From: Actinomycetota bacterium
Lineage (GTDB): Bacteria; Actinomycetota; Actinomycetes; Nanopelagicales; Nanopelagicaceae
NCBI GenBank assembly: GCA_016870795.1
Contig: VGAJ01000001.1
Location: 1-64,000, forward strand
Length of the DNA: 64,000 bases
Direction of reading: 5' to 3'
Position numbers and translations under genes: made by a program. This document shows positions 6,109-50,122 of this stretch, piece by piece (position 1 is the stretch's first letter; every line of letters begins with the position of its first letter). The notes beneath the pieces were generated by a model. The model was not told where the DNA came from and searched no databases. It saw only the letters and a program-made list of their open reading frames with translations.

Positions 6109-6631
6109 ACGAATCTATAACCTAGATGAAGTTGATCGATTCATTCTAGGCACTGTTGGCCAGCCCGGAGAGCGTGAGTTCTATATTCAAGTAAAGAAGG
6201 CTGGGCAAGTTTTCTCATTTGCCCTTGAAAAGGCGCAAGCTCAAGCACTTACTGATCGCTTCAAAGAGATGCTTCGAGAGGTAAAAAGCAGAGAGGGAGC
6301 AGCCCCGAAAGATATCGAAGCACTTGATATGCCAATAGATTCTGAATTCACTCTAGGTGTTATGGCTCTAACCTGGCAGATAGATTCTCAAATGATTAGA
6401 TTCGAAGGACAGGCAATTGCTGGGGATCAAGGCGAAGAAGTTATCTTTGATGAGCTAGCAAGCGATGAAACTGAGGGAGCACCAGCGATTCTAAGAATTC
6501 GCATTACCCCATCACAGGCCCGTAGTTTCATAGATCGGGCATCCAGTGTAATCAAAGCTGGACGACCACCTTGCATGTTCTGTGGAGCTCCAATAAATCC
6601 TGATGGTCACATCTGCCCCAGAATGAATTAA
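6098..6631 (+). CDS. DUF3090 family protein
   Basis: 177-residue cytoplasmic protein found almost only in actinobacteria. The N-terminal 'RIYNLDEVDRFILGTVGQPG' and the C-terminal zinc-ribbon-like 'CMFCGAPINPDGHICPR' (CxxC plus a later Cys) are diagnostic. I start it at ATG 6098 rather than the track's 6032 because homologues begin at this point and the upstream extension only reads the phosphatase tail in another frame. It overlaps the phosphatase by 11 bases and abuts the SCO1664-family gene, so the three are one transcription unit. Function unknown. Confidence 0.85.
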   Translation: MSLRRIYNLDEVDRFILGTVGQPGEREFYIQVKKAGQVFSFALEKAQAQALTDRFKEMLREVKSREGAAPKDIEALDMPIDSEFTLGVMALTWQIDSQMIRFEGQAIAGDQGEEVIFDELASDETEGAPAILRIRITPSQARSFIDRASSVIKAGRPPCMFCGAPINPDGHICPRMN

Positions 6632-21397: not shown

Positions 21398-22299
21398 GCC
21401 TACTTTTAATTGATAGCGCATCACTTTGGTATCGCGCCTATTACGGAATGCCAGATACCTTGCTCTCGCCTCAAGGAGAGCCAATAAATGCAGTAAAAGG
21501 TTTTATCGATATGAGCGCAAGGCTGATTAATCAGTACAAGCCAAATCGTTTAGCTCTCTGCCTAGATGGCGATTGGAGACCGTCTTGGAGAGTGGAGCTC
21601 TATCCCGGTTATAAACTCAATCGCTTAGATGATGATGGCGAAGGTGAAGAGGAGCCAGATCTCTTAACTCCGCAAGTACCTCTAATCCTTGATTTCTTTG
21701 AAGCTGCAGGGATAGCAATCGTTGGAATGGATGATTATGAAGCAGATGATGTCATCGCAACATTTGCAACCAGGGAGAGCGGTCCGATTCGCATTGCAAC
21801 TGGCGATCGAGACTTATTTCAATTAGTTGATGAAGAGCGCGATGTAAAAGTCGCCTACCTTGCTAAAGGAATTAGTAATCATGATCTGGTAAATCACTCA
21901 TGGATAGAGAAGAAGTATGTAATACCAGGTGAGAGATACGCTCTCTTTGCAATGATCAGGGGAGATGCCTCTGATGGGTTACCAGGCATTAGAGGCATTG
22001 GTGAAAAGGGAGCTGCTGAAATTGCAAAGAACTATTCCAGTATGGCTGATCTAATTAAGGCTGCTAAGTCCGAAGATCCTAAACTCTCTCCAAATCATCG
22101 CAAGAAATTACTCGCAGACCTTGATTATGCCGCTGTGGCAGATCGTCTCGTGCGATGTGCAAGAGATGTGAACCTTCCAGAGATTAATTTGAGTATTCCA
22201 AGTTCTCCAAAGAACGCTAAATACCTTGAAACTATGAAGAGCGATTATGGACTTGGAGCAAGCGTTGATCGTCTTCTATCTGCTCTTAATTGGTCATAA
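21394..22299 (+). CDS. Stand-alone 5'-3' exonuclease (FEN/PolA N-terminal-like)
   Basis: 301-residue flap endonuclease/exonuclease related to the N-terminal domain of DNA polymerase I. Metal-binding acidic motifs are visible: 'LLIDSASLWYRAYYG' at the start, 'DDYEADDVIATFA', and 'IATGDRDLFQLV', then the helix-3-turn DNA-binding motif 'LPGIRGIGEKGAAEI'. Independent of a polymerase domain. It could process Okazaki fragments or flaps beside PolA. ATGA overlap with helY. Confidence 0.92.
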   Translation: MSLLLIDSASLWYRAYYGMPDTLLSPQGEPINAVKGFIDMSARLINQYKPNRLALCLDGDWRPSWRVELYPGYKLNRLDDDGEGEEEPDLLTPQVPLILDFFEAAGIAIVGMDDYEADDVIATFATRESGPIRIATGDRDLFQLVDEERDVKVAYLAKGISNHDLVNHSWIEKKYVIPGERYALFAMIRGDASDGLPGIRGIGEKGAAEIAKNYSSMADLIKAAKSEDPKLSPNHRKKLLADLDYAAVADRLVRCARDVNLPEINLSIPSSPKNAKYLETMKSDYGLGASVDRLLSALNWS

Positions 22300-22302
22300 A
22301 GA

Positions 22303-23709
22303 ATGAGAAAACTCGCCCTTGCCCTAATTTCTGGCTTACTACTTTTTGCCGCTTTTCCACCCGTCGAATTTTGGCCAGCAGCATTTCTTGGAGCTGGATT
22401 ACTTTTTCTTCTCCTGGCCGAGGAGAGGCTAGGCGCAAGATTTCGAATCGCGCTTCTAGCTGGGGGAGCCTTCTTTGCGCCACTTCTGCATTGGAGCTCT
22501 ATCTACGTAGGAGCTCTACCCTGGTTGATATTGGTTCTGGGGGAGAGCCTGATTTTTGCCCTTATTGCTCTAGCGCCGATTCGAAAAAATGCTTATGGCG
22601 CAATCGCTTTCGCCTCTTCTTTCGCCTTAATTGAGTTATTGAGAATGAAAGCGCCATTTGGAGGGTTTGGATGGGGTCGTATCGGATTTACCCAAGTTGA
22701 TTCGCTGCAATTTCTCTATCCTTTTATTGGAGTAGTAGGAATCAGCTTCTTTGCGATATCACTTGCGGCGATTATTGTTGTTAAACCAATATTTTCACTC
22801 GCCTTTATTCCTGTAATTATTTTGAGTTTTTTTAATTTGAATATCAATACCTCATCAGAAAAGAAAATTAAAGTTATAGCCGTGCAAGGATCGGTGCAAC
22901 AATTAGGTTTGGAGTTTAATCAAAGAGCGCTTGCAGTTCTCAATAATCATATAGATGCAACACCGAAACGAAACGGCGCCGATGTAATCATCTGGCCTGA
23001 GAACGCCTCAGATGTCGACCCGATAACCAATTTGAAAGCCCGTCAGGGGATAGGTAAGTTGCTAAGTGAGATACAAAAGCCCCTGCTAATTGGCGCTGTA
23101 GAACAAAGAAGCTCTGGGCCTCTTAACTCCAGCCTTTTATTTGACGCAGATGGACAATTGCTCTCACGATACATAAAGCAAGATTTAGCTCCTTTTGGAG
23201 AATATATTCCGCTCAGGTCAATCTCTGAGTCGATTACACCCCTAGCAAAGCAAGTTCGTGATTTCATCCCGGGAGATAATTGGGTAAAGCACAAAATAGA
23301 TGGCATAGAGTTCCAATCTTTTATCTGCTTTGAAGTCCTAGATGATGATCACACTCAAGCTGGTGCAGATGGGGCAGAATTTCTCGTTGCTCAGACCAAT
23401 AACGCCACCTTTGGCGATAGTTATCAAGCAGCTCAGCAACTTCAAATAACTAGAGCAAGAGCTGCAGAACTATCACGGCAATTTGCAGTTGTTAGCACCA
23501 CTGGATACACCGCTCATATTGATCAAAATGGAGAAGTTTTGGATATCGCCGAACAGTTCAAACCAATCGCTTTGCAAATGGAAATTGAAACCTTTAAAGA
23601 TCGAGCAACAACGATCAGGGGAAGCCTTCTTTGGACGGGTGTTTTGGGTGTTTTATGGCTTTTGAGCGTATTTGGAGAGAGGCGTTCACTCTCGGGTTTT
23701 AGCCGATAA
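22303..23709 (+). CDS. lnt: Apolipoprotein N-acyltransferase
   Basis: 468-residue membrane enzyme that adds the third acyl chain to the lipidated Cys of lipoproteins. The N-terminal half has several membrane segments; the periplasmic nitrilase-like domain carries the catalytic triad: Glu233 in 'IIWPENASD', a Lys in 'RYIKQDLAPFGEYIP', and Cys342 in 'FICFEVL', with a final C-terminal helix. Three bases after the exonuclease gene, likely cotranscribed. Convergent with gcvP. The FKBP lipoprotein upstream is a candidate substrate. Confidence 0.93.
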   Translation: MRKLALALISGLLLFAAFPPVEFWPAAFLGAGLLFLLLAEERLGARFRIALLAGGAFFAPLLHWSSIYVGALPWLILVLGESLIFALIALAPIRKNAYGAIAFASSFALIELLRMKAPFGGFGWGRIGFTQVDSLQFLYPFIGVVGISFFAISLAAIIVVKPIFSLAFIPVIILSFFNLNINTSSEKKIKVIAVQGSVQQLGLEFNQRALAVLNNHIDATPKRNGADVIIWPENASDVDPITNLKARQGIGKLLSEIQKPLLIGAVEQRSSGPLNSSLLFDADGQLLSRYIKQDLAPFGEYIPLRSISESITPLAKQVRDFIPGDNWVKHKIDGIEFQSFICFEVLDDDHTQAGADGAEFLVAQTNNATFGDSYQAAQQLQITRARAAELSRQFAVVSTTGYTAHIDQNGEVLDIAEQFKPIALQMEIETFKDRATTIRGSLLWTGVLGVLWLLSVFGERRSLSGFSR

Positions 23710-23729
23710 TCTACATTATGTAAACTAAT

Positions 23730-26573
23730 CTAGTTTATTGCCAAGCTCTCAATCGGCTGGCAGGCACAAACTAAATTCCTATCCCCGTGTGCTCCATCAA
23801 CCCTTCCAACCGTTGGCCAATACTTTCCTCGTCTCCCCATCCCAACCTCACTGCCCATGGGTAGCGCAGCATCCTGACGGCTATATGGCCTATCCCAAGT
23901 ATCACTCACCAAAGCTTCAACGGTATGCGGAGCGTTTCGTAGCGGCGAATCATCTATCGAAATCTCCCCCGATTCAATTGCCTTAATCTCCTTGGCAATA
24001 GATCCTAGGGCGGCAATGAAGCGATCTATTTCGGTTATATCTTCAGATTCTGTTGGTTCGATCATTAGCGTGCCTGGAACTGGGAAACTCATCGTTGGTG
24101 CGTGGAACCCATAATCCATCAAACGCTTAGCAATATCATCAACGCTTACACCACTTCGCTTGGTAATTTCTCTGATGTCAATAATGCATTCATGAGCAAT
24201 TAAGTCATTCTTTCCGGTGTATAAAGTTGGGTAATCAGGAGCTAGTTTCTTTGCGATGTAATTTGCAGAAAGGATTGCTACCTGCGTTGCTTTTGTTAGA
24301 CCCTCTGCCCCCATCATCCTTATATACGCCCAAGAGATAGGCAGAATTAACGCTGATCCAAAAGGAGCGCCGCTAATTGGCCCTAGTCCGGTTAACGGTC
24401 CTGCTAATGAGTCAAGTGGATGATTTGGTAAGAAAGGCCCAAGATGTTTCTTAGTAATTACCGGACCAACACCAGGACCTCCCCCGCCATGTGGAATGCA
24501 GAATGTTTTATGAAGATTAAGATGTGAGACATCAGCTCCAAATTTTCCAGGTTGAGCAAGTCCTACTAAAGCATTCAAATTAGCACCATCAACATAAACC
24601 TGGCCACCTGCATCATGGATTAGAGCGCAGATTTGGCTTATCTCTGATTCAAAGACTCCATGGGTCGATGGATAAGTGACCATTAAAGCTGCCAATTGCT
24701 CGCCATATTCGGCAATTTTGGCCTTGAGATCGTCAAGTGAAACATTTCCAGCTTCATCGCAGGCGATTACAACAACTCTCATTCCTGCCATAACAGCGCT
24801 TGCCGCATTTGTTCCATGGGCACTTGATGGAATCAAGCAGATATCGCGCTGACTCTGACCTATTGAATCGAGATAATTTCTAATCGCAAGAAGTCCTGCA
24901 AACTCTCCTTGAGAGCCGGCATTTGGCTGAAGTGATACTGCGTCATATCCGGTGATATCAATAAGCCACTTAGAGAGCTCAGAGATGATTTTTCTTGTTC
25001 CGAGCGACTGATTACTTGGCGCAAAGGGATGAAGATCTGCAAATTCAGGCCAGGTAATAGCCTCCATCTCGGTTGTGGCATTTAATTTCATTGTGCAAGA
25101 ACCAAGCGGAATCATCGTTCTATCAAGTGCTAGATCTCGATCTGAGAGAGTCCTGATGTAGCGAAGCATCGCTGTTTCTGAGTGATAAGAATTGAAAACT
25201 GGATGTTGCATATAGGAAGTTGCTCGAAGCGATGCGATCGCGCCATATGGTTCAGAGCTACTTTGCTTCAAACCCCAAGCACGAATCAATTTCTCAACAG
25301 TTGCACTAGTGCTTACCTCATCAAAGGCAACACTTACTCCCCCGCTGATCTTTCTAACATTAATTCCAGCTTTTAGCGCAGCATCAATTAGGGCATCGCT
25401 ATTACTTGCAAGAAATGAAACTGTGTCAAAGAAATTCGGGCTATAAAGTTCAAAGCCGCTCTCTTTCAGAGAGCCGGCAAGCTTTCTTGCAAGTTGATGC
25501 GTTCTTACTGCAATTTCCTTTAAACCTTCTGGTCCGTGCCATGCTCCATAAAAGGCAGAAATGACAGCTAGAAGAACTTGAGCAGTGCAGATATTGCTTG
25601 TTGCCTTATCGCGCCTAATATGTTGCTCTCTAGTCTGAAGAGCTAGACGCAGGGCTGGATTTCCATGGCTATCAATACTCTGTCCAACAAGCCTTCCTGG
25701 AAGGGATCTTTCAAGACCCTCTCTTACTGCAAGAAAACCTGCATGCGGTCCACCAAATCCCATAGGAACGCCAAATCTCTGAGCAGAACCAACTGCGATA
25801 TCTGCTCCCCACTCCCCCGGAGATTTAATTAATGTAAGCGCAAGTAGATCACTTGCCATAATTACTAACGCCCCACGGCTATGTGCCTTTGCAATTGCAT
25901 CAGAGAAATCATTTAATGAACCGAAAGTATCTGGATATTGGAGAAGGACTCCAAAGCAATTACTCAAATCAACACCACTACTTAAATCAAGAACTTCACA
26001 ATTTATCTTTAACGGCTTAGCCCTTGTCATCACCACTGCTTGAGTCTGCGGATGAACCCTTGAATCAATTACAAATCGTGCTTCGTCGCCAAGTTTGCTG
26101 CTTCGCCTTGCCAGTGTCATTGCCTCTGCTGCAGCTGTTGGTTCATCAAGCATTGAGGCGTTACAGATTGGCAGGCCCGTTAGATCGCTAACCATTGTTT
26201 GGAATGTAAAGAGAGCTTCAAGTCTTCCCTGGCTTATCTCTGGTTGATAAGGGGTATACGCGGTATACCAAGCTGGATTTTCCAAAACATTTCTAAGCAC
26301 TACTGGCGGAGTAATGCTTGCGTAATATCCGAGGCCGATTAAAGATTCCATCTTTCGATTTTCTAAAGCTAACTTTCTTAACTCCGCAATTACTTCCACC
26401 TCTGATATTGGTTTTGGAAGTAGCGGGCCGAACTTAGCAGTTAACTTGATTGAATCTGGGAGAACAGCCTGCGTAAAAGATTCTAAATCGCTATAGCCAA
26501 GCTCAAGGAGCATGGTTGAGATCTCATCACCTGATGGACCTATATGCCGATCTGAAAATTCCGCTCGCGCCAT
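23730..26573 (-). CDS. gcvP: Glycine dehydrogenase (decarboxylating), P-protein
   Basis: 947-residue single-chain P-protein of the glycine cleavage system: decarboxylates glycine using PLP and loads aminomethyl onto lipoyl-GcvH. Residue Lys689 in '[18 protein letters not shown]' is the PLP lysine. The N-terminal half ('[10 protein letters not shown]') is the inactive-like lobe. Partner gcvH lies at 29344 on the same strand with regulators in between, as in mycobacteria; gcvT is not in the window. ATG 26573 follows TATCCT (26586-26581) by seven bases: leaderless promoter distinct from the MerR gene upstream. Confidence 0.97.
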
Positions 26574-32358: not shown

Positions 32359-33443
32359 CGGCGATGAACCTTCCAATCTTGATTCTTGAGGTGAGCTTCA
32401 ACTCGCTCGCCATCTTCAGGAGAGAAGGCTAGTGTGATTAAACCACTTTCTTGACCGGGTGAATGCTCAATCGATAAATCTTCAATATTGGCTTTGATAT
32501 GAGCGCATTCAGTAAATAATTGACTAAGAGCTCCTGGTTCATCTTTGATGACTACTAATAGGTGGAGATAATTTCTTGGTTTAGCGCCATGTTTGCCAGA
32601 AACTTTTGCTCGTCCTGAATTTCCCTTGAGAAAGAGAGTCTTAATCTCTTCTTGTTTAGATTCAGAAATTGCGCCTTTAAGTGTGAGAGCTTTGGAAATA
32701 AATTGATCGAGAGTGCTTAAAACTTCATCTTTATTTTCTAAAAGTATCTCACTCCAAAGCGCCCCATCACTTCCAGCAATTCTGGTCATATCTCTAAGGC
32801 CCTGCCCTGAGAGCTCAAGACCTGCGCCTATATCTTGAATTTCACTTGCTATTAGCGTGGATGCGATTTGAGGAAGGTGTGAGATTCTGGCCATTAAATG
32901 ATCGTGCTCTTTAGCGCTCATTTCATAGCTACTTGCCCCAAGAGCCTGAATTAGCTCTTTTGCCATTACAATGGCGCGGGCAGAAGTCTTGGCAGTTGGA
33001 GTAATGATCCACGCCCTACCATTGAAAAGATCTGCTTGAGCTGAAGATGCTCCTGAAACTTCGCGACCAGCCATTGGATGAGTTCCAACAAATTGCTCTG
33101 CAAGCACCGGTAATACTTCTATCTCTTGTATAAGGTTAGTTTTAACACTGCTAACATCTATAAATATTGATTTAGAGTTTGCAGCAAATTCGGCTTTTAG
33201 CGCAGATACAGTAGATGCTGGCGGAGTTGCGATGATAACTAGATCGAACTCCCTTCTCTCTTCCCCTTCTGCCTTTAGATACGGCGCCAGGAGATCTTTG
33301 GCAAGAGCCAAAGCTTTCTGATCGGCATCATCTATGGATACAAAGACCCCTTGATGCGCTAGAGCTAGCGCGATTGAGGTACCAATTAAGCCAGCACCTA
33401 CGATCCTTACTGATTGAATCTGAGGAGAAGCCTGCGCATTCAT
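32355..33443 (-). CDS. tyrA: Prephenate dehydrogenase with C-terminal ACT domain
   Basis: 362-residue NAD-dependent enzyme of tyrosine biosynthesis. It has the Rossmann motif '[18 protein letters not shown]' at residues 15-32, '[16 protein letters not shown]' around the catalytic His, and '[13 protein letters not shown]'. A C-terminal ACT domain (about 290-362, '[16 protein letters not shown]') is a probable site for tyrosine feedback. It follows aroH with a one-base overlap: the two consecutive steps chorismate to prephenate to 4-hydroxyphenylpyruvate are cotranscribed. Confidence 0.94.
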
Positions 33444-33805
33444 TACTGAGCTATATCTTTGCGAAGAGTGACCGCGCCGCGAAGGTAAATATGTGAAATT
33501 TGATCCTGGTTCAGCTCTGTGTGGCAGTGGAGCATCAAACGAATAGTTCTTGGAAGGCTTGTTGGCACAGCCATTTCGACCGCGCAGATTAAAGGGACTT
33601 TTTCAAGGCCCATGGCTCTGGCTGAAGCAGCCGGAAAGTCGCTAACCAGATCTGGGGTGCAGGTAAAAAGCATAGAGATCAGATCGGTAGTATTGAGCTT
33701 ATTGGCCTCGAGAACTTTTGAAACTAGTTCCACGACAGCTTCTTGCATCAAGACCGGATCATCACGGTCTATCTGAATAGCTCCTCGTATTGCTCGCACG
33801 AACAC
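33443..33805 (-). CDS. aroH: Chorismate mutase (AroH type)
   Basis: 120-residue trimeric mutase of the B. subtilis AroH fold: 'RAIRGAIQIDRD' with the substrate Arg at the N-terminus, 'CAVEMAVPTSLPRTIRLMLH' holding the active-site Glu and Arg, and 'IYLRGAVTLRKD' at the C-terminus. Converts chorismate to prephenate. Starts at GTG 33805, with TAAAAT (33817-33812) six bases upstream and no Shine-Dalgarno: leaderless. The unusual AT-rich palindromic spacer lies directly upstream. Confidence 0.94.
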   Translation of the reverse strand: MFVRAIRGAIQIDRDDPVLMQEAVVELVSKVLEANKLNTTDLISMLFTCTPDLVSDFPAASARAMGLEKVPLICAVEMAVPTSLPRTIRLMLHCHTELNQDQISHIYLRGAVTLRKDIAQ

Positions 33806-34088
33806 TTTCAGATTTTACCCGTCTTGCCCTCTCTCCCGTGGGAAGCCGTCATAGTGTTTTATCGACTTATAGTTATCTCTATTTCAGCGATTTCGCGAAG
33901 AATTGTCGACAATTACCCGCAGACTAGGGGTTCGGTAGTAAAAGCTATATATCGACTTTTATGAGAAGGCGTAAGGCTAGAAAAGTCGATATATTAACTA
34001 TTCATATCCATGCAAAAAAACGTTATATCAATAAAGCGGTATTTACTAATATTAATAAAAACATATAACTATTAAACAATTAAACCGT
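33806..34088. promoter_or_regulatory. AT-rich spacer with palindromes upstream of aroH
   Basis: The largest non-rRNA gap in the window. It has a perfect 14-base palindrome AATTGTCGACAATT (33901-33914), a perfect 14-base inverted repeat ATATATCGACTTTT / AAAAGTCGATATAT (33947-33960 and 33981-33994, 20-base loop), another TCGACTT at 33862-33868, and a very AT-rich half (about 33990-34088). The aroH -10 box is at its lower end. No convincing gene; the 62-73-codon ORFs here have no family resemblance. Plausibly regulator sites for aromatic amino acid genes and the end of the rluB transcript. Confidence 0.5.
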
Positions 34089-34802
34089 TTATAGATTTAT
34101 GACTTCGACTTCATTTAGCGCTCGCCATTTGCCACTAGGTAGCTCCCCCAGCTTTATCGAACCAAAGGCTGTTCTGATCAAGCGAGTTACTGGAAATCCA
34201 ATCTCATCAAAGATTCTTCTAACCACGTGATTTCTTCCCTCATGGATGACGAGTTCGATAAAACCACCGAAACGGTTGACTGCCAAAGGGCGAGCTAAAC
34301 CATCATCCAATTCAACCCCCCTAGAGAGAAGATCGAGTGCTGCCCTTGGCAGAGCTTCCTCGGTGGCAACGAGATAGGTCTTCTTCACTTCAAAAGATGG
34401 ATGTGTGGCTTCATGGGCCCATTGGCCGTCATTGGTAACAATGATCAATCCTTCACTCTCCTTATCTAAGCGCCCTACATGAAATAGCCGTTCCTGCCAG
34501 TCAAGAAAATAGTCACTGAGACAGGGGCGACCTTCTGGGTCTGACATGGTGGACAAAACACCTGTAGGTTTATGGAACGCGAGATAAGTTTTGGTCTTTA
34601 CTGCTGTAATCGTTTCATTATCAACTTCAACTTTAGTCTTTATCGGGTCTATTTTCAGTCCTTGAGTGCGAATTACCTTGCCATCAACCTTAACCCGGCC
34701 CTGCTCGATGAGTTCTTCGCAGGCTCTACGGCTAGCTACGCCACAGTCGGCCATAAACTTTTGAAGTCTTACTAGTTCGGCCATAGCGGCCATCCTACTC
34801 AC
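34089..34802 (-). CDS. rluB: 23S rRNA pseudouridine synthase (RluB/RsuA family)
   Basis: 237-residue RNA-modifying enzyme: N-terminal S4 domain ('VRLQKFMADCGVASRRACEELI') followed by the pseudouridine synthase domain with catalytic Asp in 'HVGRLDKESEGLIIVTNDG' and a C-terminal 'IHEGRNHVVRRIFDEIG'. GTG at 34802 overlaps the scpB stop as GTGA; ATGs at 34793 and 34784 are possible alternative starts closer to the homologous N-terminus. Conserved neighbour of scpAB in actinobacteria. Confidence 0.92.
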   Translation of the reverse strand: MSRMAAMAELVRLQKFMADCGVASRRACEELIEQGRVKVDGKVIRTQGLKIDPIKTKVEVDNETITAVKTKTYLAFHKPTGVLSTMSDPEGRPCLSDYFLDWQERLFHVGRLDKESEGLIIVTNDGQWAHEATHPSFEVKKTYLVATEEALPRAALDLLSRGVELDDGLARPLAVNRFGGFIELVIHEGRNHVVRRIFDEIGFPVTRLIRTAFGSIKLGELPSGKWRALNEVEVINL

Positions 34803-35356
34803 TCAGTAAGAGAAGCAATTACCTCATCTAGGCCATCTATACTAGGCAAGAAGGGCGCTAAAGCTGGAAGATCTTCAACGCTATTGAGTCCAATTCTTTC
34901 TAGGAAGTAGTGGGTAGTTCGATAGAGAATCGCTCCACTCTCATGCTCAATTCCGCACTCCTCCACTAAACCTCTAGTCACAAGAGTCTTCATAACAGCT
35001 TCCACATTAACCCCGCGGATTGCAGAGACTCGAGCCCTTGAAATTGGTTGGCGATATGCAATCACAGCAAGTGTTTCCAGAGCTGCCTGTGAGAGTTTTG
35101 CTTGCTGGCCATCCAAAACGAATTTTTCAACTAATGGCGCCAAGTCAGGATGGCTATAAAAACGCCACCCGCCAGAGATCTGCTTGAGAGTGAAGCCCCT
35201 GGCCTGCTCCTCATAGGAGGCTGCAAGGGCATTGAGCGATTCAAGAATCTGCTCAGTTGGCGCTTCGATTATCTGGGCAAGGACTACTTCTGAGACGGGT
35301 TCTTCGACAACCATCAAGATAGCTTCAATTGAACGTTCCAGTTCGCGATTAGACAT
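34799..35356 (-). CDS. scpB: Segregation and condensation protein B
   Basis: 185-residue winged-helix kleisin partner: 'LERSIEAILMVVEEPVSEVVLA' and 'ALETLAVIAYRQPISRARVSAIRGVN' are diagnostic. With ScpA and SMC it forms the chromosome condensation complex; smc itself is not in the window. Overlaps scpA by 8 bases and rluB by 4. Confidence 0.94.
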   Translation of the reverse strand: MSNRELERSIEAILMVVEEPVSEVVLAQIIEAPTEQILESLNALAASYEEQARGFTLKQISGGWRFYSHPDLAPLVEKFVLDGQQAKLSQAALETLAVIAYRQPISRARVSAIRGVNVEAVMKTLVTRGLVEECGIEHESGAILYRTTHYFLERIGLNSVEDLPALAPFLPSIDGLDEVIASLTE

Positions 35357-36257
35357 TTTCGCCCCCTTCTTCTACCCCGTCTTCGCCTGATTCAACTAGA
35401 GCTGGGCGATCAAACTCATCACTAACTCTAATTTCACCTTCAACGCTGCCAACCCAGGTGATCTGTAGTTCGCCTAGAGCAACCACCTGCTCAAATCTCA
35501 CTGAACCCTCTTTAAAGAGTTCAAGCAGAGCTAGAAATCTAGCAACCACAACTAAGGTATTTGCTGCATCACTTACCAAGGCCCTAAAACTCATTGTTTT
35601 ATGCCTTCTCAAAGCTGATACAACCCCGAGGGCCTCAGCGGCCACACTAACTAGCGGCAGATGGAGGTGCTCCACAGAGAGGGTTGGCGCGGTTTTGGGA
35701 GTGAGAACGCGGTTTGCGATAGCTGCAAATCTCTCTGGAGTAACGCCTATTAAAACCTCAGGTAGTAGAGCTGCGAAAACTGGATCAAGTGAGACTGAGC
35801 GGGCAAAGGTCTTTTCCTGTTCAAGAATTCGTTCGGAGAGGATCGATGCAATCTCTTTGAAGGCGCGATACTGCAAGAGGCGAGCAAAGAGCAGATCGCG
35901 AGCTTCAAGAAGTGCGAGATCTTCTTCATCATCAATCTGGCCAGATGGCAATAATCGAGCTGCTTTAAGGTCCAATAAAGTAGCGGCAACAACTACGAAT
36001 TCACTAGCATGATCTAATTTCCAGCCAGCTTCAGTTTTTTCTAATTCGCGAATATAGCTAATAAATTCATCTGTAACTGTGGCAATAGCGACATCGGTGA
36101 TATCCATTCGATGTCTTGAAATGAGCTGTAGCAATAAATCAAAAGGTCCATCGAAGTTTTCTAAGTGAACCGAGAAGCCAGCAACTCTTCCCTCACTAAT
36201 ACTTTGCGCAGGGGAGGCTAAAGTATTACTTGAGGGTTGCGCAGAAACTTCATCCAT
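35349..36257 (-). CDS. scpA: Segregation and condensation protein A (kleisin)
   Basis: 302-residue kleisin. The N-terminal SMC-neck-binding part has 'FSVHLENFDGPFDLLLQLISRHRMDITDVAI', followed by 'LDHASEFVVVAATLLDLKAARLLP' and a C-terminal winged helix ending in an acidic tail. ATG 36257 follows TAGACT (36272-36267) by nine bases; it is divergent from parA over 62 bases. Together with scpB it loads SMC. Confidence 0.93.
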   Translation of the reverse strand: MDEVSAQPSSNTLASPAQSISEGRVAGFSVHLENFDGPFDLLLQLISRHRMDITDVAIATVTDEFISYIRELEKTEAGWKLDHASEFVVVAATLLDLKAARLLPSGQIDDEEDLALLEARDLLFARLLQYRAFKEIASILSERILEQEKTFARSVSLDPVFAALLPEVLIGVTPERFAAIANRVLTPKTAPTLSVEHLHLPLVSVAAEALGVVSALRRHKTMSFRALVSDAANTLVVVARFLALLELFKEGSVRFEQVVALGELQITWVGSVEGEIRVSDEFDRPALVESGEDGVEEGGENV

Positions 36258-36319: not shown

Positions 36320-37237
36320 ATGGCAAAAAGTGCTTCAGAGATATCTCGCTTGAACGCTAAATCGACATTTTCAAAAGCTGATTCTGAAATTGTTACATCA
36401 TCTTCAGTATTGGGAAAGCCTGATAGGGATTTCCCTTATCCAGCGCCATTAACAGAACATGGCAATGCAAAGATAATTTCAGTTGTTAATCAAAAAGGTG
36501 GCGTTGGCAAAACCACAACAACGATTAATCTCGGCGCTGCTTTTGCAGAGCTTGGAAGACGAGTTCTATTAATTGATTTTGATCCACAGCACTCACTTTC
36601 GATTGGGCTTAATGTTTCAACCAGAGATATCGAAGGTTCTGTCTATAACCTGCTTATGGATGAATCAACGCAGGTATCTGATTTCCTTTTAAAAACCAGC
36701 GTTCCTGGCATGGATATGATCCCAGCTCATGAGGATCTATCTGGCGCCGAAGGTGGCTTGGTAAATGTAATTGCTCGCGAAAAGATTCTAAAGCGAGTTC
36801 TTTCTACTGTCACTGATTTCTACGATGTTATTCTCATTGATTGCCAGCCATCACTTGGCCTTCTAACCGTAAATGCCCTAACCGCATCGCACTGGGTTCT
36901 AGTGCCCCTGGAATGTGAGTATTTTGCGCTTAGAGGTGTGGCTCTCCTTGATGACATAATCAAGAAAGTAAAGGCCAATACCAATCCAGATATCGAGCTT
37001 CTCGGAATCTTGCCAACGATGTTTGATAGAAAGACTGTTCATAGTCGCGAGGTTTTAGAACGAATCAGTGAAGCCTTCCCAACTAAAGTATTTGATACCA
37101 CAATTGCTAGAACCGTTAGATTCCCAGAGACAACTGTTGCTGGCGAGCCCATAACTTCCTATGCCAGCTCCTCAGTTGGAGCTGCTTCTTATCGCAGACT
37201 TGCAAGAGAAATAATTGCTAACGGAGGGGTTCGATGA
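36320..37237 (+). CDS. ParA-family ATPase
   Basis: 305-residue Walker-type ATPase with the deviant Walker A 'VVNQKGGVGKTTTTINLGAA' at about residues 55-75, 'VLLIDFDPQHSLS', and 'VILIDCQPSLGLLTVNAL'. This is the orphan ParA next to scpA in actinobacteria (mycobacterial Rv1708-like), distinct from the parAB pair at the origin. It is cotranscribed with the small downstream gene (ATGA overlap) and, unusually, is on the opposite strand to scpAB and xerD. Confidence 0.92.
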   Translation: MAKSASEISRLNAKSTFSKADSEIVTSSSVLGKPDRDFPYPAPLTEHGNAKIISVVNQKGGVGKTTTTINLGAAFAELGRRVLLIDFDPQHSLSIGLNVSTRDIEGSVYNLLMDESTQVSDFLLKTSVPGMDMIPAHEDLSGAEGGLVNVIAREKILKRVLSTVTDFYDVILIDCQPSLGLLTVNALTASHWVLVPLECEYFALRGVALLDDIIKKVKANTNPDIELLGILPTMFDRKTVHSREVLERISEAFPTKVFDTTIARTVRFPETTVAGEPITSYASSSVGAASYRRLAREIIANGGVR

Positions 37238-37650
37238 CAAGACGTATTAGTTTGCCGGGAGCAGATGAGTTATTTAGAAAGACAACTCTAAGCGCTGTTC
37301 CAGATCAAAGCGTTGAAGAAGTTGAAGTTGCTCACACCAACCGGCCAACAACTGCCACCGTTGCAAAAGCAGCTCCAAAGTCAACTGGCGTTAGACAGAC
37401 TCCAAGACGTCGCGCAACTGGTTTGGATAAAGGACCATCAGGACGAGAGAAACATGATGAAAAAATTACGGTTTATCTATCTCCTGAAGAGCTCTTTGAT
37501 TTAGAGCAAGCAAGACTTCACTTGAGAGGAGATCTTGGCCTTGCAGTTGATAGAGGTCGAATCGTCCGTGAATCTCTTGCAATTGTTATTGCAGATTTAG
37601 AGGCAAAGGGCGATCAATCAATTATCGCTAGAAGACTTAGAGGCAGATAG
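37234..37650 (+). CDS. Small ParA partner, possible ribbon-helix-helix-like protein
   Basis: 138-residue protein with a disordered, basic N-terminal half (Thr/Lys/Arg-rich) and a C-terminal block 'ITVYLSPEELFDLEQARLHL' then 'VDRGRIVRESLAIVIADLEAKG' that looks like a ribbon-helix-helix DNA-binding fold (beta strand, then two helices). Overlap with parA by ATGA suggests it is the DNA-binding or adaptor partner of this orphan ParA; this role is inferred from position, not from a recognised family. Ends two bases before the convergent xerD stop. Confidence 0.75.
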   Translation: MTRRISLPGADELFRKTTLSAVPDQSVEEVEVAHTNRPTTATVAKAAPKSTGVRQTPRRRATGLDKGPSGREKHDEKITVYLSPEELFDLEQARLHLRGDLGLAVDRGRIVRESLAIVIADLEAKGDQSIIARRLRGR

Positions 37651-37652
37651 CT

Positions 37653-38561
37653 CTACTTTGATCTTGGGTGAGCGCTTGCATAGCTCTCACGCAATTTATC
37701 GATTGTTACCAAGGTATAGATCTGGGTTGTTGTTACCGAGGCATGTCCCAAAAGTTCTTGCACCACTCTTATATCTGCTCCCCCATCAAGTAGATGGGTG
37801 GCAAAAGAATGCCTAAATCCATGCGGAGAAATCGCCTCATCTAGCCCCGATCTCTTTGCGGCATCAATAACAATCTGCCAGGCGCTCTGACGCGAAAGGC
37901 GAGTTCCTCTTTTTTCATTAAGAAAGAGAGCTTCTTCCTTAAGATTCTTAGCAAAGACTGGACGGGATCTGGTTAGATACTGATCCAAAGCCAATCTGGC
38001 ATAACTTCCAACCGGAACTAAACGCTCCTTTCCCCCTTTGCCACGGACTCGAATAGTTATTGCCTCAACGCCCTCTTGGCTATTTTGAGAAATATCTGAT
38101 CGATTCAAAGCAATAATCTCGCTAACTCTTGCCCCCGTTGCATAGAGCAGCTCCAATATCGCCCTATCTCTAATTCCCGATAAGTCATCGGCGCAGCTAT
38201 TAATCAGTCTTGCAATCTGATCAATACTTAAGGCTTTAGGTAATCTCTTAGCACTCCTTGGCACAAGAATCTCTTTAGCAATACTTTCAACGCCACTTTC
38301 TTTAGCTAGAAATGCAAAGAGACTTCTCAAGGCAACAGCATTTCTAGCGATACTTGATTCGTTTAGATTTGCCTCTCTTAGAGTGTGAAGAAAGGCAGCT
38401 ACATCACTTGGATTGATACTAGTAAGTGTCTTCTGGCTTTTATTTAGATAGTTAAGAAACTTCTCTAAATCTCTTCTATAAGATGAAAGAGAATTCTTAG
38501 CCAGCCCTCGCTCTATTGCGCAGTGATTGAGGAATATTTCAATCGAAGATCTATCATCCAC
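37653..38561 (-). CDS. xerD: Tyrosine recombinase XerD
   Basis: 302-residue site-specific recombinase for chromosome dimer resolution. The N-terminal core-binding domain ('[22 protein letters not shown]') is followed by a catalytic domain with Arg in '[13 protein letters not shown]', His-x-x-Arg in '[16 protein letters not shown]', the second His in '[14 protein letters not shown]' and the Tyr nucleophile there. Location after pyrG is the normal actinobacterial one; it is a housekeeping recombinase, not a phage integrase. Overlaps pyrG by 8 bases. Confidence 0.93.
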
Positions 38562-43602: not shown

Positions 43603-43642
43603 TTTTCTAGCTGATCTAAATAGATAAGGTAGTTAGAACTTC

Positions 43643-43813
43643 TTAAGCTTGACTCTGGCTAGAGATACCTTCAACATGAGTTAGCGCTGCTGATAAATCT
43701 TGGTTAACTTGATCAAATAGCGCGCCATGTTCGGACAAGGGAGCAAAGGCAATCTCATTAATTCTCTTCTTTATAGCTGAGATCTGCTCGAGATTTTCAA
43801 TATTTTCACTCAT
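43643..43813 (-). CDS. 56-residue acidic microprotein, unrecognised
   Basis: An ORF too short for the track: ATG at 43813 and TAA at 43645-43643, encoding 56 residues beginning 'MSENIENLEQISAIKKRINE' and ending 'HVEGISSQSQA'. Predicted mostly helical with an amphipathic heptad-like pattern. Its start overlaps the upstream gene's stop as ATGA, the same coupling used by real genes here, and it fills the tlyA-phasin-like gap where actinobacteria commonly encode a small conserved protein. Function unknown. Confidence 0.7.
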   Translation of the reverse strand: MSENIENLEQISAIKKRINEIAFAPLSEHGALFDQVNQDLSAALTHVEGISSQSQA

Positions 43814-45090: not shown

Positions 45091-45208
45091 AGTCCGGCGG
45101 CGTTCTACTCTCCCACAAGGTGACCCGTGCAGTACCATCGACGCTGAGAGGCTTAACTTCCGGGTTCGGAATGGGACCGGGTGTTTCCCTCTCGCTATGA
45201 CCGCCGAA
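45091..45208 (-). rRNA. rrf: 5S ribosomal RNA
   Basis: 118-base 5S gene: 5' TTCGGCGGTCATAGCGAGAG, the loop CCCATTCCGAACCCGGAAGTT and 3' end pairing CCGCCGG. Last gene of the operon. Ends approximate to a few bases. Confidence 0.95.
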
Positions 45209-45285
45209 ACGCTATTGAGATGTCAATCAAAACCATCAAATATCTTTCGATCTTTGATTTGGTTCCCGACCGTATCTCGGGAACC

Positions 45286-45299
45286 ACACAGTGGACGCG
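45286..45299 (-). other. 23S processing stem, 3' arm
   Basis: ACACAGTGGACGCG (plus strand) is the exact complement of 48416-48429. Together the two arms make a 14-base-pair stem bracketing 23S, the expected RNase III-type processing stem. Confidence 0.75.
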
Positions 45300-45309
45300 T
45301 AGCAACTTT

Positions 45310-50122
<4,813 letters not shown>

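Follow-up and report, generated by a model that had tools for sequence, protein, structure and literature searches.

What is the AT-rich spacer between rluB and aroH in this Nanopelagicaceae genome (assembly GCA_016870795.1), and to which of its neighboring genes does it belong functionally? In the window, by which we mean the whole 64,000-nt stretch of contig VGAJ01000001.1 that was analyzed, the spacer occupies positions 33806–34088 (283 nt, bounded by the stop codon of rluB and the GTG start codon of aroH, assigned to neither strand) and is flanked by two genes that both lie on the minus strand. An earlier note had drawn attention to positions 33850–34088; the spacer it described is real, but its true extent is larger and the elements singled out are only a corner of it. 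Nor is it the only non-coding, non-rRNA stretch above 200 bases, as had been claimed, since a crude ORF cover (ORFs of at least 70 aa) also leaves 6109–6631 and 43603–43809. From its sequence and that of its relatives, the spacer is very probably a cluster of binding sites, a candidate centromere-like array, for a second DNA-positioning system composed of a ParA and a small DNA-binding partner and situated near the replication terminus.

Structurally, the spacer comprises five to seven copies of one ~20-bp, TCGA-centered site with the consensus AWA-CNNTTTATCGAYAAW: site 1 (ATAGTGTTTTATCGACTTATAG; 33851–33872, plus strand, 19.8 bits), site 2 (33899–33920, minus strand, 10.5 bits), site 3 (33941–33962, plus strand, 18.4 bits), site 4 (33979–34000, minus strand, 13.4 bits), site 5 (ATACCGCTTTATTGATATAACG; 34021–34042, minus strand, 20.0 bits, the top score of all sites), and two weak sites, 6 (34045–34066, minus strand, 10.4 bits) and 7 (34081–34102, plus strand, 12.1 bits), the last overlapping the rluB stop. 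The elements reported earlier are all present. The 14-base palindrome AATTGTCGACAATT (33901–33914, a single copy in the genome) is included in site 2 and is thus one weak site and not central to the array; the inverted repeat of 14+14 bases, ATATATCGACTTTT/AAAAGTCGATATAT (33947–33960/33981–33994, with a 20-base loop) is two sites in opposite orientation, sites 3 and 4 being its left and right arms; the extra TCGACTT copy is TATCGACTT at 33860–33868; and the roughly 90 AT-rich bases (33995–34088) hold sites as well, site 5 among them. An isolated strong copy (21495–21516, 16.4 bits) lies within an ORF, 2.2 kb beyond the dif-like site described below. At the aroH end, a −10 box, TAAAAT (33812–33817, minus strand), stands 12 nt before the GTG and occupies the same place across the genus spacers (TAAAAT in 16/18, TAAACT in 2/18), so that the aroH transcript is probably leaderless and the promoter takes the last ~60 nt of the spacer, with the sites standing behind it.

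Evolutionarily, the place and the sites are retained. We collected 17 spacers from the same genus, one more that was shortened because rluB was matched only in part, and six from the family's other genera (Nanopelagicaceae, as assigned from record titles). Their position was constant and their length mostly 240–288 nt, while the intervening sequence has mostly drifted. A matrix of 22 bp settled on AWA-C-NN-TTTATCGAYAAW and recovered 152 sites in 23 spacers versus 6–12 in shuffles. When the matrix was re-trained only on the other genera and then applied to the genus (cut-off at least 12 bits), it found 69 sites in the 17 genus spacers versus 0–2 in twenty Markov-shuffled sets, and a single site in the 63.5 kb of the window outside the spacer, which places the array far beyond chance. 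Across 76 family spacers (median length 270 nt), there were 4.0 strong sites each in a conserved place, most frequently spaced 41–43 bp apart; no helical period stood out (R about 0.31–0.37 at all periods tried), and we claim no phasing. The orientation of the sites varies between relatives, and the inverted-repeat hairpin is therefore not kept, which argues for recognition as DNA rather than as an RNA hairpin. In most relatives the sites are concentrated at one locus, and the site core is not enriched genome-wide (12 genome matches versus 17 for a reversed control), a count on which a genome-wide regulon was rejected; a phage origin of the spacer was rejected too, with no similar DNA among 50,697 phage records. 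The earlier note had proposed that decaying DNA would show no conservation in close relatives, and the opposite was found, the array being kept across the family; on these sequence comparisons, its functional conservation appears almost certain.

An array-type site also occurs in the gene for the Walker-type ParA ATPase (parA, 36320–37237, plus strand; AAA_31, 3.2e-58), about 31–52 nt into the coding sequence (36351–36372, plus strand) and at the same offset in 94/104 loci. The motif is fixed in parA codons 14–16 (AAA TCG ACA, frozen across the family), synonymous positions included: in 87 family sequences, TCG encodes Ser15 in 100% and ACA encodes Thr16 in 96%, whereas codons agree in a median of 41% across the 77 columns that can be compared. 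One relative (L105) has changed the Thr to Ile, yet retains TCGAYAAA. Elsewhere in the family alignment, codon 302 is Gly GGA in 95% of cases, just ahead of the start of the next gene, and is probably the ribosome-binding site of that gene.

The next gene (37234–37650, plus strand) shares 4 bp with the end of parA, the two being co-transcribed, and encodes a 138-aa protein with an N-terminal MTRRISLPGADELFR motif and a C-terminal, probable ribbon-helix-helix (RHH) domain. Around this pair lie a xerD-like recombinase (37653–38561, minus strand; a syntenic neighbor, named from sequence and synteny), scpA (35349–36257, minus strand), scpB (34799–35356, minus strand), rluB (34089–34802, minus strand; S4 plus pseudouridine synthase), and the chorismate mutase gene aroH (33443–33805, minus strand). 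The order xerD-parA-RHH-scpA-scpB-rluB-aroH-tyrA is preserved by synteny throughout the class (in this group the parA-RHH pair is inverted), and parA matches outside the genus are mostly 54–65% identical. The array thus lies ~2.2 kb from the par operon, past scpA-scpB-rluB, and the parA start carries a single site only.

The N-terminal peptide of the RHH protein, M[ST]RRxSLPGADELFR, is nearly invariant and its C-terminal domain is highly conserved. In the AlphaFold model, the N-terminus has low pLDDT, and the C-terminal domain (pLDDT 90.7) consists of an extended segment followed by helices H19–34 and H42–63, the pattern of a probable RHH monomer. Foldseek with this model gave no significant match (best E > 1); among the few weak matches with a target-normalized TM-score >0.5 were 3no7 (TMt 0.54), the plasmid centromere-binding RHH protein ParB of pCXC100, and 5zkt, a TCP domain that we take to be RHH-like, and the RHH assignment rests on the pattern and these two weak matches. 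By sequence, nothing meaningful matched among solved structures and solved centromere-binding proteins (CBPs), and the protein matched no Pfam or NCBIfam family. The gene was found in 191/395 class genomes sampled, beside parA in the loci examined; the family is thus without a Pfam or NCBIfam model despite its presence in about half of the sampled class.

Sites and RHH gene tend to occur together. We compared loci of high GC content, in which chance would rarely produce so AT-rich a motif, and found at least one site in 15/33 RHH-bearing loci versus 0/20 RHH-less ones (Fisher 3e-4, with phylogenetic dependence uncorrected). The GC-rich loci held 26 sites, 12 in the rluB-aroH spacer and 14 elsewhere, and nine of these 14 fell between −313 and +69 relative to the start of parA (p about 1e-8 for a region that makes up 5.7% of the DNA). 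RHH-less genomes have spacers of 24–396 nt, mostly <200, without a site, even in the few of lower GC. Two supposed RHH-less cases were rejected: for L093 (GC 0.50), the one seeming exception to this rule, the same-genus contig stops short of the RHH gene, and the gene is present elsewhere in the genome (G014); the G285 contig starts at scpB, so that its RHH gene lies beyond the contig edge. Array and RHH gene are not fully coupled, since most Streptomyces-like, f17, f26, and other GC-rich RHH-bearing genomes have a spacer without a recognizable array; in the Streptomyces-like, f17, and f26 genomes, the sites may be elsewhere or diverged. Several records that carry a Nanopelagicaceae-type locus look mislabeled, seven under Bifidobacterium breve titles (L124, L132, L146, L169, L172, L173, and L181) and others as Fonsibacter (L175), Streptomycetaceae (L187), and Clavibacter sp. 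BS5 (L189); the L189/G005 copy of the RHH gene is broken into two frames.

Where on the chromosome does this locus lie? A dif-like site, AGCCGATAATCTACATTATGTAAA (23701–23724, plus strand), overlaps a 20-bp convergent gap (23710–23729), and the GC skew changes sign there, between two bins meeting at 24000; the window thus spans the replication terminus, with 10 kb between array and dif-like site. The array neighborhood lies at 0.47–0.50 of the chromosome from dnaA and 9.6–13.5 kb from the dif-like site in all 17 family genomes that are complete, with a single contig each (some distances were taken to the RHH gene rather than to aroH, and some chromosome lengths were rounded to 0.1 Mb). The cluster is near the terminus in RHH-less genomes too (0.47 in G048 and G066), and its location may therefore be inherited gene order. 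A 16S-23S-5S rRNA operon at 45092–50119, about 21–26 kb from the dif-like site, is in an unusual place for rRNA genes.

Canonical ParABS appears to be a separate matter. ParB was found in all near-complete relatives tested, with parS-like sites in most of them, near ParB; neither was seen in the window's own assembly (79% complete), presumably through incompleteness. The canonical parS, TGTTTCACGTGAAACA, was considered as the identity of the array and rejected, being absent from the spacer, and in relatives one parS lies near ParB. Likewise, no ParB N-domain (PF02195) was found in the partner protein, the true ParB being encoded elsewhere in relatives. This separation argues that the array belongs to a second system rather than to ParABS.

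Thus, we posit as the best reading, and a fairly probable one, a second ParA-RHH-centromere system located at the terminus, whose array would be bound by the RHH protein. The parts of this reading differ in strength: the RHH protein is quite likely to be the binder of the array sites, whereas for ParA as the driver of terminus positioning we see the balance as even or tipped slightly in favor. Mechanistically, the product of the small RHH gene downstream of parA would bind the five to seven sites, coating the array with RHH dimers, and its conserved N-terminal peptide would engage nucleoid-bound ParA and stimulate its ATPase. The array's distance of ~10 kb from dif leads us to propose sister termini, rather than origins, as the cargo, which would be moved or tethered during XerCD resolution, SMC-ScpAB action, and septation; through the parA-start site, the RHH protein would also repress its own operon. 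Among the functions that had been guessed at earlier, the evidence most favors a structural or segregation site beside scpAB-parA (through conservation, the parA site, RHH co-occurrence, and dif proximity), and an operator set survives in a limited sense, with one site at the parA start and the array upstream of the aroH promoter. More tentatively, and with slightly less than even confidence, many actinobacteria may have such a dedicated terminus centromere besides their origin ParABS, with dif and the terminus as cargo, the 'orphan' ParA (PldP/Rv1708) being its motor after partner loss.

Of the alternatives, the one that survives best, though unlikely, has the RHH protein bind the array and the parA operator without any ParA-driven partition, either condensing the terminus as a MatP-like organizer or setting ParA levels as a plain autoregulator. 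The 9.6–13.5 kb distance to dif, the operator at the parA start, and the adjoining scpAB and xerD would all suit it, but copies of the motif are not scattered around the terminus (the core counts were below those of the control), and the N-terminal motif, the operon shared with ParA, and the iterated sites are better suited to a ParA partner. Less probable again is an operator array through which another regulator would control aroH-tyrA and hence aromatic amino acids: the array does end ~57 nt upstream of aroH, directly behind the conserved −10 box, but parA itself contains a site, sites precede the gene in other families, RHH-less genomes that retain aroH-tyrA have no site, and 4–7 sites over 220 bp are excessive for a simple operator. 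A landing or loading site for some other terminus or SMC factor (ScpAB-SMC, or an XerCD/FtsK accessory) is, in our estimate, a little more improbable still; scpAB and xerD are adjacent and dif is ~10 kb off, yet the RHH-less loci examined have scpAB, and mostly xerD and parA, without a site, and both the parA-start site and the co-occurrence follow the RHH gene. A structured or small RNA, as the earlier note had also suggested, or decaying intergenic DNA is very improbable, because the perfect 14+14 inverted repeat is two inverted site copies whose orientations vary among relatives so that no hairpin is kept, no Rfam match exceeded the gathering score, and place, length, and sites are conserved across the whole family.

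Returning to the terminus-located ParA-RHH system, its interest lies in the ParA-like protein found beside scpAB throughout actinobacteria, major pathogens and antibiotic producers included, which has been called an orphan without a partner. New here are a candidate partner, which belongs to an RHH family so far uncatalogued, together with the DNA site of this partner and a candidate centromere; our search of open-access published articles found none on the RHH partner or the array. The role of this ParA is now directly testable in culturable relatives, and, if the reading is true, terminus segregation would be coupled to XerCD, SMC-ScpAB, and septation. To our knowledge, bacterial partition systems are not normally located at the replication terminus.

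Among known systems, type Ib plasmid partition combines a ParA ATPase, a small CBP with a flexible N-terminus, iterated centromere sites, and, at the operon itself, a site for the CBP (PMC5016525). Like ParF-ParG of TP228, delta-omega of pSM19035, and ParA-ParB of pCXC100, the present locus has a ParA-type ATPase with a small candidate CBP (N-terminus probably flexible, C-terminus probably RHH), iterated direct and inverted sites, and a site at its own operon; unlike them, it is chromosomal and conserved over a bacterial class, its array is not directly upstream of the par operon but ~2.2 kb off and near dif, and sequence searches matched its candidate CBP to none of the solved CBPs. Archaeal SegAB pairs a chromosomal ParA orthologue with a small RHH protein whose palindromic sites precede the cassette (PMC12284271). 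The likeness to this Sulfolobales system, a chromosomal ParA and a small, probable RHH protein with sites, is one of anatomy with another domain of life, and SegB sites spread chromosome-wide and are mostly intragenic, whereas here there are one terminus array and one operator. Closer to home, the orphan ParA, PldP, has been described as having no ParB partner at all, as forming foci at nascent septa, and as giving minicell phenotypes (PMC3989709), and the orphan-type ParA of mycobacteria binds ScpA and ParB (PMC10482377). The present ParA, with its gene likewise beside scpA-scpB-rluB, very probably belongs to the lineage of PldP (C. glutamicum Cg1610), M. tuberculosis Rv1708, and S. coelicolor SCO1772, as judged by synteny and literature; unlike an orphan, it has a candidate partner gene and sites, at least outside lineages that lost or lack the RHH gene. 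With canonical ParABS, the proposed system would share a ParA motor, a DNA-bound partner, and a centromere, and it differs in that the partner is not a ParB CTPase, the spacer has no parS, and the location is the terminus rather than the origin. In E. coli, the RHH-type protein MatP acts at the terminus near dif through many dispersed matS sites and without a ParA. The present locus resembles MatP-matS in its probable RHH-type protein and its proximity to the terminus and dif, and differs from it in having its sites clustered at one locus and a ParA beside them.
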